Assembly: GCA_016125385.1 (NCBI GenBank)
Contig: WGLV01000022.1
Location: forward strand, 310,001 to 374,000
Direction: 5' to 3'
Source: a bacterium
Lineage (GTDB): Bacteria > Hinthialibacterota > Hinthialibacteria > Hinthialibacterales > Hinthialibacteraceae
DNA: 64,000 bases
How positions within the stretch are numbered: position 1 is the first letter of the stretch; the number at the start of each line of letters is the position of its first letter. This document shows positions 37,121-43,452 of this stretch, piece after piece. The notes beneath the pieces are model-generated. The model searched no databases, was not told where the DNA came from, and worked only from the letters and a program-made list of their open reading frames with translations. Made by a program: the position numbers and the translations under genes.

Positions 37121-37154
37121 GCCCCGCGATCGAAGTCGATCGTGGGGTTTTTTT
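37121..37154 (+). terminator. Rho-independent terminator
   Basis: Stem CCCCGCGATCG / CGATCGTGGGG (one wobble) with AAGT loop, then seven T residues. Confidence 0.88.
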
Positions 37155-37255
37155 CACACTTTTCACTTAATGAAATCGGATTTTGAGCCATTTTGACGCA
37201 TGGGGCGAGAGGGTGCTTTTCGGTGTATCTCTAGTATTTACAGACTGTTGTCGTG

Positions 37256-37272
37256 TTGGCACGGCTGATGCA
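37256..37272 (+). promoter_or_regulatory. Sigma-54-like (-24/-12) promoter of the Hsp20 operon
   Basis: TTGGCACGGCTGATGCA matches the TGGCAC-N5-TTGCA consensus with one mismatch; GG (37258-37259) and GC (37270-37271) are exactly ten bases apart, as RpoN needs. It is about 72 bases before the first Hsp20 ATG. An activator site was not identified. Confidence 0.6.
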
Positions 37273-37300
37273 ATAAGGTGAAAGTGAAAAAGGAAAACAA

Positions 37301-37319
37301 TCGCGAGCGAGACTCGCGA
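37301..37319 (+). other. Hairpin in the Hsp20 leader
   Basis: Perfect 7-bp inverted repeat TCGCGAG / CTCGCGA with a 5-base loop, 12 bases before the GGAGG ribosome site. It could affect translation with temperature, but it does not sequester the site itself. Confidence 0.4.
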
Positions 37320-37344
37320 AACAATTATCAGGAGGTCAGTGGTC

Positions 37345-37806
37345 ATGAACGTTTGGAACGCTTTTCAGGAGTTGGATCGGATTCGTGACGAATTCGACCG
37401 TGCTTTAGATCCACGCCGCAATCGATTCGGCGATGGCCGCTGGCGTCTGGCTTTTCTGCCGGGATACGGCGCCCGACGCTATCCGCTGGTTAACGTATTT
37501 GAAGAGAAAGACGCATACGTGATTGAGGCGCTGGCGCCGGGGCTGGACCCGAAACAGGTCAACGTGACCGTCGTTGGAAACGTTTTGACGCTGAGCGGCG
37601 AGAAGACGCGTGGCAACGGAGACGTCAAGCCGGAAGCGGTGCATCGCAGCGAACGGGCGGCGGGCAAGTTTGTGCGCTCGGTCGAGTTGCCAGCCGAGGT
37701 TGATTCGGAAAAGGTGTCGGCTGAGTACAAGAACGGCATTCTGAAGATCAACGCGCCCAAGCACGAAAAAGCACGCCCCCGCGCCATTGAAGTCAAAGTC
37801 GGTTAA
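37345..37806 (+). CDS. Small heat-shock protein Hsp20 (first of three)
   Basis: 153 aa. The ATG has GGAGG nine bases upstream; a GTG two codons earlier is too close to it. Alpha-crystallin domain ~48-145: YPLVNVFEEKDAYVIEALAPG, VVGNVLTLSGEK and the closing VSAEYKNGILKINAPK with the IxI-like tail reduced. ATP-independent holdase chaperone of the cytoplasm. First gene after the sigma-54-like promoter; next Hsp20 is 31 bases away. Confidence 0.9.
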   Translation: MNVWNAFQELDRIRDEFDRALDPRRNRFGDGRWRLAFLPGYGARRYPLVNVFEEKDAYVIEALAPGLDPKQVNVTVVGNVLTLSGEKTRGNGDVKPEAVHRSERAAGKFVRSVELPAEVDSEKVSAEYKNGILKINAPKHEKARPRAIEVKVG

Positions 37807-37837: not shown

Positions 37838-38242
37838 ATGAGCGTTGAAAAAACCGTCCCCACGACGCAGGAAAATCAGGGTTCCGTTACTCAGGAGTTG
37901 TCACGGGAAGAGCAGTTTTACGTGGCGCCGCCGGTCGATATTCACGAACACTCCGACCGGATCGTGCTGGTAGCCGACGTGCCCGGCGCGACGAAAGAGG
38001 GTATCCGGGTGAAAGTAGAGGATAACGTCCTCACCCTGGAAGCCTCGACGGAAACCAACGAACCGGTTGCTCCGGTTTACCGGGAATATCAGATGGTCAA
38101 CTTTTTCCGCCAGTTTGAATTTTCCGAGCAGATCGATTCGGAAAAGATATCGGCGGAATTGAAGAACGGCGTTCTGACGGTCAATTTGCCCAAGGTGGAG
38201 AAGGCGAAGCCCCGGCAGATTGAAGTGAAGTATTCCGAATAA
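37838..38242 (+). CDS. Small heat-shock protein Hsp20 (second of three)
   Basis: 134 aa; AAAGGAG seven bases before the ATG sets this start. The short N-terminal arm (SVEKTVPTTQENQG) is followed by an alpha-crystallin domain: PPVDIHEHSDRIVLVADVPG, VEDNVLTLEAST, and SAELKNGVLTVNLPK, the family's end signature. Sequence differs clearly from the first and third copies, so it may form hetero-oligomers with them. Confidence 0.92.
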   Translation: MSVEKTVPTTQENQGSVTQELSREEQFYVAPPVDIHEHSDRIVLVADVPGATKEGIRVKVEDNVLTLEASTETNEPVAPVYREYQMVNFFRQFEFSEQIDSEKISAELKNGVLTVNLPKVEKAKPRQIEVKYSE

Positions 38243-38280: not shown

Positions 38281-38754
38281 ATGAATCTGGTTCCGAGCCG
38301 ATGGCATAACCCCGCGGAAGAGTTCGCTCGCGACATGGATCGTTTCTTCTCCAACTGGATGCGTGACGACATGCGTGGCCGCGATCCGCTGCGAGGAGAT
38401 TTTTTCGCTCCATTCCGCCGAATCGAAAGCGGCGTCGCGGTCGATGTTTCTGAAACGGACAATGAAGTTCATGTACGGGCCGAAGTCCCCGGCATGGATA
38501 AGGATCACATCCACATCGAGATCGCCGGCGACCGGTTGACGTTGCGCGGCGATAAGAGACAGGAGCACAAGCACGACGAACGCGGCATTCACGTTCTGGA
38601 GTGTTCATACGGTACATTTCAGCGGATTATTCCGCTGCCGGTCGAGGTAGAAAGCGAAACAGCGAACGCAACGTATAAAGATGGGGTATTGGAGATCACG
38701 TTGCCCAAAGCCGAACACGCCAAGCCTCGCGCTGTGGAAGTGAAAGTGAATTAA
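38281..38754 (+). CDS. Small heat-shock protein Hsp20 (third of three)
   Basis: 157 aa; AAGGAGG precedes the ATG. A basic/acidic N-terminal arm (EEFARDMDRFFSNWMRDDMRG) precedes the alpha-crystallin domain with GVAVDVSETDNEVHVRAEVPG, IAGDRLTLRGDK and NATYKDGVLEITLPK. Closest in layout to the classic Hsp20/HspA proteins. A terminator ~50 bases downstream closes the operon. Confidence 0.92.
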   Translation: MNLVPSRWHNPAEEFARDMDRFFSNWMRDDMRGRDPLRGDFFAPFRRIESGVAVDVSETDNEVHVRAEVPGMDKDHIHIEIAGDRLTLRGDKRQEHKHDERGIHVLECSYGTFQRIIPLPVEVESETANATYKDGVLEITLPKAEHAKPRAVEVKVN

Positions 38755-38802
38755 GACGGACGAAATCCGTAGCAAGGCCGCGTTACGCGGCTGACGTTCA
38801 CC

Positions 38803-38835
38803 AGCCCGGGATGTTTTTCATTCCGGGCTGTTTTT
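38803..38835 (+). terminator. Hsp20 operon terminator
   Basis: Stem AGCCCGGGATG / CATTCCGGGCT with TTTTT loop, then TTTTT. Confidence 0.88.
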
Positions 38836-41967: not shown

Positions 41968-43452
41968 ATGCCTCGAATTACAGGAATTCTAAAAGCATCC
42001 GCTTCGGGCCGCTTTTACCCCGATCAACCCGCTGAGTTGAGAGAGAACGTCGAGCGTTATCTCAAGGAAGCGAGCGTTACGCCGAGCCGTGAAAGCGTGT
42101 TCGCCGTTTTGACGCCGCACGCGGGGTATCCATTCTCGGGGCCGGTGGCGGGGGCTTCATTCCGGTTCGTGCAAGAGCAGCCCGTCGATACCGTGCTGTT
42201 TGTCGCGCTCGCCCATCAGGGGGTTGAAGGCGCGTCGGTGTTCCAGGGCGTAGGTTATGAAACGCCGCTTGGCTTTATTGAAAACGATCGCGAACTGGCG
42301 AAGGATCTGATCGCCGGCGGCTACCCCATGACCGACAACCTGACGCCTCACATCGGCGAGCATTCGGTCGAAGTGAACCTGCCATTCGTGCAGATCGCGT
42401 TTCCCAAAGCACGCGCCGCCTCGATTCTGATATCGGAGGTTAGTCCGGGATTGTGCGCCACAGTGGGTGAACGCATCGCCCAGGCGCTGCGGAGGCATTC
42501 AAACCAGCGCATCCTGCTGGCCGTCTCATCCGACATGAGTCACTACCCCCGTTACGAGACGGCTGAGCGCGTCGATCGAGCCATGCTGGAAACGGTGAAA
42601 ACGCTCGATCCCGCCCGGGTGATCCACGATCTGGATTCGCTGGTGGATGAGCGTGAGCCCAACCTGCATTGCGTGATGTGCGGCGGAGCCGCCATGGTGT
42701 CCACGATTCACGCCGCGAGAGCGATGGGCGCGGAAAAGGCTGTCATTCTCGGGTATCGAAACAGCGGCGACAGCGGGCTCGCGGATCGGTCGCGGGTGGT
42801 GGGATATGGCTCTCTCGCGATTATGACGGGAAAGAACGATGAGGCGAAAAAACAATCCGGTTCGCATTCATCTCTGAGCGAAGCCGATCAGAAAGAACTG
42901 CTTTCTCTGGCGCGGAGGGGGCTGGAAGCCGAGTTTAATGGAAGCGATGATCCATCCCGTTCAGACCGGCCCGCATTACAGCGTGAAGCCGGCGTCTTCG
43001 TCACGCTGAAACGGCATGGGGAGTTACGAGGTTGCCTGGGGCGCTTCGATCCAGAAGGCATTCCGCTTTTTGAACTCGTGCCGTTGATGGCCGTGCAATC
43101 GGCGACGCACGACCATCGCTTTTCGCCGCTACGGAAAGAAGAACTCGCTGAAACCGATATTCAGGCTTCCGTATTGTCGCCGCTTCGGCTGGTGGAAGAT
43201 GTCAATGAAATTCAGGTGGGCCGGGACGGATTGCAGATCGTCGCGCGCGGCCCACTCGGAGGACGCCGGGCGGGGACGCTGCTTCCCCAGGTGGCGACGG
43301 AACGAGGATGGAGCGTCTATGAATTTCTGGAAGCGACCTGTACGAAGGCCGGTTTAAGCGTGGACGCGTGGAAACAACCGGGCACGGAAATCTATGCTTA
43401 TTCAGCCGAAGTGTTCGGCGATCTTGATTTCGGCGCGCCGCCGTTCGCGTGA
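41968..43452 (+). CDS. MEMO1/AmmeMemoRadiSam-B fused to AMMECR1/AmmeMemoRadiSam-A
   Basis: 494 aa in two domains. Residues ~10-275 are MEMO-like (SASGRFYPDQPAELRENVERY, TPHAGYPFSGPVAGASF, His in HIGEHSVEVNLPF, SSDMSHYPRYE, HCVMCGGAA). A linker follows, then the AMMECR1 domain ~300-485 (GVFVTLKRHGELRGCLG, DHRFSPLRKEELAETDIQASVLSPL, LLPQVATERGWSVYEFLEATC). Many prokaryotes encode the two with a radical SAM partner; no radical SAM gene is in this window. Biochemical role unknown; a fused arrangement argues that the two act together. Confidence 0.93.
   Translation: MPRITGILKASASGRFYPDQPAELRENVERYLKEASVTPSRESVFAVLTPHAGYPFSGPVAGASFRFVQEQPVDTVLFVALAHQGVEGASVFQGVGYETPLGFIENDRELAKDLIAGGYPMTDNLTPHIGEHSVEVNLPFVQIAFPKARAASILISEVSPGLCATVGERIAQALRRHSNQRILLAVSSDMSHYPRYETAERVDRAMLETVKTLDPARVIHDLDSLVDEREPNLHCVMCGGAAMVSTIHAARAMGAEKAVILGYRNSGDSGLADRSRVVGYGSLAIMTGKNDEAKKQSGSHSSLSEADQKELLSLARRGLEAEFNGSDDPSRSDRPALQREAGVFVTLKRHGELRGCLGRFDPEGIPLFELVPLMAVQSATHDHRFSPLRKEELAETDIQASVLSPLRLVEDVNEIQVGRDGLQIVARGPLGGRRAGTLLPQVATERGWSVYEFLEATCTKAGLSVDAWKQPGTEIYAYSAEVFGDLDFGAPPFA

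Follow-up and report, generated by a model that had tools for sequence, protein, structure and literature searches.

A predicted sigma-54 switch with a matching activator site in front of chaperone genes in a little-known group of uncultured bacteria

Heat-shock genes are rarely linked to activator-driven transcription, and a near-consensus sigma-54 promoter directly in front of a three-gene Hsp20 operon raises the question of whether small heat-shock proteins, and perhaps other chaperones, are placed under sigma-54 control in this organism. The preliminary description of the window (the whole 64,000-nucleotide stretch of DNA analysed here) proposed control by RpoN on the basis of the promoter motif and its position, and noted no CIRCE element. 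Our analysis confirms the observation and supports that interpretation, but the scope is wider than the preliminary description supposed, and a second conserved element lies upstream that it had not recognized. The features of the locus, all on the forward strand, are as follows.

37121..37148 (+), an intrinsic-terminator-like hairpin (12-pair stem then a T run) that ends the upstream gene and insulates the operon
37184..37200 (+), a putative enhancer (upstream activating sequence), TGAGCCATTTTGACGCA, an exact match to the inverted repeat TGNGYCA-N3-TGRCNCA
37256..37272 (+), the sigma-54 -24/-12 promoter, TTGGCACGGCTGATGCA, with a predicted transcript start near 37283 (inferred)
37330..37335 (+), the ribosome-binding site AGGAGG of the first Hsp20 gene
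37345..37806 (+), the first small heat-shock protein gene (153 aa from the ATG; an alternative in-frame GTG lies at 37339), PF00011 E 1e-21
37838..38242 (+), the second small heat-shock protein gene (134 aa), PF00011 E 6e-20
38281..38754 (+), the third small heat-shock protein gene (157 aa), PF00011 E 6e-20
38802..38830 (+), an intrinsic-terminator-like hairpin (12-pair stem then a T run) at the end of the operon

The promoter carries GG at 37258-59, ten bases, and GC at 37270-71, reads as TGGCAC-N5-ATGCA, near the consensus YTGGCACGRNNNTTGCW, and ends 72 bases before the ATG at 37345. All three Hsp20 ORFs score above the Pfam HSP20 cut-off. No sigma-70-type site was found between 36900 and 39000, no CIRCE-like site was found in the window, no Rfam family is matched in the window, and the 5’ leader folds no better than shuffles (z -0.29), arguing against a ROSE-type thermometer. 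A 7-pair hairpin in the leader (37301-37319, TCGCGAG-CGAGA-CTCGCGA) does not cover the ribosome-binding site and was not seen in the relative G001 (G numbers denote individual genomes, G000 being that of the window). Further downstream, a single ORF at window positions 41968-43452 joins a Memo domain and an AMMECR1 domain.

The promoter motif alone is only moderate evidence. At up to 1 mismatch it is the only match in the window against 0.24 expected, and 22 of 100 shuffles of the window had at least one match. At up to 2 mismatches, matches are depleted, with 16 in the window against 45.7 expected, and 218 in the genome against 380 for the reversed pattern. There are two exact matches in the 5.5 Mb genome. 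The other lies on the minus strand of contig C38, in the intergenic region before a row of genes for a soluble PAS histidine kinase, a sigma-54 response regulator and a second receiver protein (C38:8000-18571), and points away from the kinase gene. What makes the promoter convincing is its position and conservation. The required machinery is also present, as the genome encodes RpoN (Sigma54_DBD, E 7e-61) and about 20 enhancer-binding proteins; 22 loci with clear enhancer-binding-protein domains were analyzed further. As an aside on this assembly, the sequence TGAGCTATGCTGACTCA recurs at seven places on contigs C10, C27, C41, C62, C63 and C72, at least four of them within about 115 bases of a contig end, and is probably part of a repeated element that broke the assembly.

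Class relatives were recovered by Hsp20 similarity, giving 14 genomes including G000. Three of their contigs have the same lengths as named records, G010 = LMZT01000121 (Candidatus Hinthialibacteria OLB16), G006 = JAKQSI010000004 and G011 = JABTUV010000010, and the group is probably Hinthialibacterota. In all class genomes with a clear ortholog, a sigma-54-like site lies about 70-140 nt before the hsp20 match. Reading these upstream regions revealed a second shared element, the 17-bp inverted repeat TGNGYCA-N3-TGRCNCA, whose window copy lies 55 bp upstream of the promoter and is the only match at up to 1 mismatch in the window, where 0.42 are expected. With at most 2 mismatches, and a sigma-54 site 20-200 bp downstream, the pair precedes hsp20 in 14 of 14 genomes (0.01 expected in dinucleotide shuffles) and groES in 14 of 16 loci, covering 14 of 14 genomes (0.1 expected). 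The two groES loci without it are extra copies in G011 and G013. The reversed repeat gave 0 of 30, and 29 control upstream stretches of activator genes gave 0. The hsp20 count is partly circular, because the pattern came from those loci, and it includes G009, whose Hsp20 is distant; the sigma-54 score weights and thresholds are our own. The groES count, however, is an independent test, as the enhancer pattern was fixed on hsp20 before groES was examined.

Exact copies of the repeat number 24 in the 14 genomes, against 3 for the reversed pattern, and 13 of these precede protein-quality genes: the hsp20 operon in G000, G005, G006, G007 and G008; a second hsp20 in G007; groESL in G011; dnaJ/cbpA in G000; dnaJ in G005, with only a weak sigma-54 partner; clpB in G001 and G002; and htrA in G004 and G010, in G010 as the gene ahead of grpE-dnaK. 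The other 11 are intragenic or lack a suitable sigma-54 site. ClpB, DnaJ and GroEL scored above a curated cut-off, HtrA was identified by trypsin and PDZ domains, and the DnaJ-like gene of G000 has DnaJ and DnaJ_C domains. Before grpE-dnaK, the pair is present in G003 (1 mismatch) and G001 (2) and weak in G000 (3 mismatches and a non-consensus -24), all with a TGGAA-type -24. dnaK itself showed no site because it lies inside an operon behind grpE or htrA-grpE; in 9 of the 12 class loci examined, an HtrA-like reading frame lies just before grpE-dnaK, as read from the translation, with only the G010 frame supported by Pfam. Another Hsp20 gene of G000, which overlaps the start of a lon-like protease gene (contig C76), has neither the enhancer nor a sigma-54 site before it, and two further near-matches to the enhancer in G000 have no sigma-54 partner.

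The conventional repressor system was not found. HrcA was detected in 0 of 14 class genomes, while 7 of 14 control genomes gave a match, and CIRCE was found neither in the window nor in 16 groES upstream regions.

The association extends beyond the class. Among 80 named Hsp20 relatives from many phyla, 31 have a strong sigma-54 site within 250 nt (0.68 expected in base shuffles), including Hydrogenedentota, Riflebacteria/Ozemobacter, Nitrospira, Methylomirabilis and a planctomycete. The same repeat plus a sigma-54 core occurs in 10 of 12 verrucomicrobial hsp20 loci (0.07 expected), including Chthoniobacter flavus Ellin428. Nine of nine Hydrogenedentota loci have a repeat of the same layout, like TGTTTCA-N3-TGAAACA, upstream of strong sigma-54 sites, which suggests the same circuit with changed specificity; this repeat was read from those same loci, however, and up to 4 mismatches were allowed (0.2 expected). 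The first repeat was found in 0 of 9 Riflebacteria loci.

The identity of the activator is less certain. None of the 22 activator loci of G000 has the repeat at its promoter, although a few 2-mismatch hits lie elsewhere in those loci, so that autoregulation does not point to the activator, and the loci of the C38 two-component system carry no enhancer. We tentatively favor an AtoC-like response regulator (L034; G000:C2:376132-377514, L073:2633-4015, minus strand), which has receiver, AAA+ and Fis-type HTH domains and whose closest named model is AtoC, but at 479 bits against an NCBIfam equivalog cut-off of 714; no AtoC, ZraR or NtrC assignment was supported. Orthologs with the helix GIGRRTLIRKL (read in part in two of them) were found in G001, G005, G006, G009, G011, G012 and G013, 7 of the 8 relatives sampled in depth, with about 85 of the 267 activator matches in the relatives compared. 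All 11 verrucomicrobial genomes sampled, for which 29 of 62 matches were compared, have an activator with a similar helix (RRT[LF]HR). Its best match in G000 is L034 in 10 of 11, and in the eleventh (G107) another G000 activator, L033, leads by 379 to 375 bits; these preferences over the next G000 protein are modest. A histidine kinase reading frame lies next to it in G011, G099 and G105, with kinase domains identified in G011 and G099. The preference for L034 rests on distribution, not on binding.

It is also possible, though we consider it unlikely, that the activator is instead an orphan single-domain (PspF-like) enhancer-binding protein (L039; G000:C2:97287-98294) kept inactive by a chaperone or partner protein. 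This protein is very conserved, with orthologs in 12 of 13 relatives at 51-91 percent identity, an invariant RPTLDRKI helix where the HTH was read, and no receiver domain; in G010 its HTH part is in a separate reading frame. However, no ortholog was found in G009, whose hsp20 and groES keep the pair, nor in 32 genomes from other groups, including 11 verrucomicrobial ones. It lacks the enhancer near its own gene, and it is syntenic with a Gly-rich secreted protein with a weak cohesin match. A chance promoter match in front of an ordinary operon would be favored by the commonness of loose matches and by the frequency of matches in shuffled sequence, but the conserved position in 14 of 14 genomes with a linked enhancer, and the same pair on other chaperone genes, refute it in practice. 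A further alternative, also unlikely in our view, is that the sigma-54 promoters are real but the regulon answers another signal (nitrogen, growth phase, envelope or oxidative stress), with chaperones produced as part of that program while heat acts through a separate sigma factor or an RNA thermometer. Activators of sigma-54 tend to sense non-thermal cues, Chlamydia uses sigma-54 with tandem sigma-66 promoters on hrcA-grpE (PMC8762339, PMC7482065), and a parallel sigma-32 system remains possible. The lack of a recognizable sigma-70-like site near the operon, a leader that folds no better than shuffles, and a target list that is nearly a textbook heat-shock list all speak against it.

Taken on sequence comparison alone, without expression or binding data, these results most likely reflect a working sigma-54 promoter paired with an upstream enhancer bound by an AAA+ enhancer-binding protein, and we hold this view with reasonable confidence. 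The operon would belong to a class-wide protein-quality regulon whose members vary between genomes, with hsp20 and groESL nearly everywhere, plus dnaJ/cbpA, clpB, htrA and probably grpE-dnaK. In this model, sigma-54 polymerase sits closed at 37256-37272 until a stress signal, probably through a histidine kinase, activates the protein bound at 37184-37200, which uses ATP to open the promoter, and the three Hsp20 proteins are made together with GroESL, DnaJ-type proteins, ClpB and HtrA. That the repeat is the activator’s binding site is inferred, and heat or misfolded protein as the signal is assumed. In these bacteria, activator-driven sigma-54 transcription would do, at least in part, the work that HrcA/CIRCE does elsewhere.

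Precedents for individual parts of this arrangement exist. The small heat-shock protein gene ibpB of E. coli is transcribed by sigma-54, with sigma-32 for ibpAB (PMC4370416), but there the sigma-54 promoter is a secondary one beside sigma-32 and serves one gene only, while here it is the only recognizable promoter, with a conserved enhancer and a likely chaperone regulon. In Chlamydia trachomatis, a sigma-54 promoter lies on the hrcA-grpE(-dnaK) operon, CtcB-CtcC (AtoS-AtoC) includes an AtoC-like activator, and 10 of 13 sigma-54 targets rise in heat shock (PMC8762339, PMC7482065); Chlamydia, however, keeps HrcA/CIRCE and a tandem sigma-66 promoter, and CtcC has no DNA-binding domain, while here HrcA was not found and an enhancer repeat is present. 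A 2025 matrix-based study predicted that IbpA, GroEL/ES, DnaK/J and GrpE groups are enriched in sigma-54 promoters in Planctomycetota and Bacteroidota (PMC12316311), but in the passages we consulted no enhancer, no activator for these genes and no Hinthialibacterota are mentioned. The repeat shares with NtrC-type enhancers a layout of two 7-bp halves around 3 bases upstream of a sigma-54 site, although its half-site is TGNGYCA where that of NtrC is probably TGCACCA. A term search of the Desulfovibrio sigma-54 regulome found no discussion of Hsp20 (PMC4641369), and searches among open-licence papers for a sigma-54 heat-shock regulon with a defined enhancer listed nothing closer.

It is tempting to speculate that in Hinthialibacterota and many Verrucomicrobiota the core heat-shock regulon is run by sigma-54 through one dedicated two-component enhancer-binding protein that reads TGNGYCA-N3-TGRCNCA, and that related lineages such as Hydrogenedentota would use the same circuit with a drifted enhancer. 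This remains a tentative proposal, slightly less likely than not, but it would represent a third main logic of bacterial heat-shock control beside alternative sigma-70-family factors and HrcA-type repressors. The enhancer motif gives a handle to find the regulon and its activator in other genomes. A regulon in which chaperones are switched on through sigma-54 and an enhancer-binding protein would put protein quality control under an ATP-driven, signal-gated switch.
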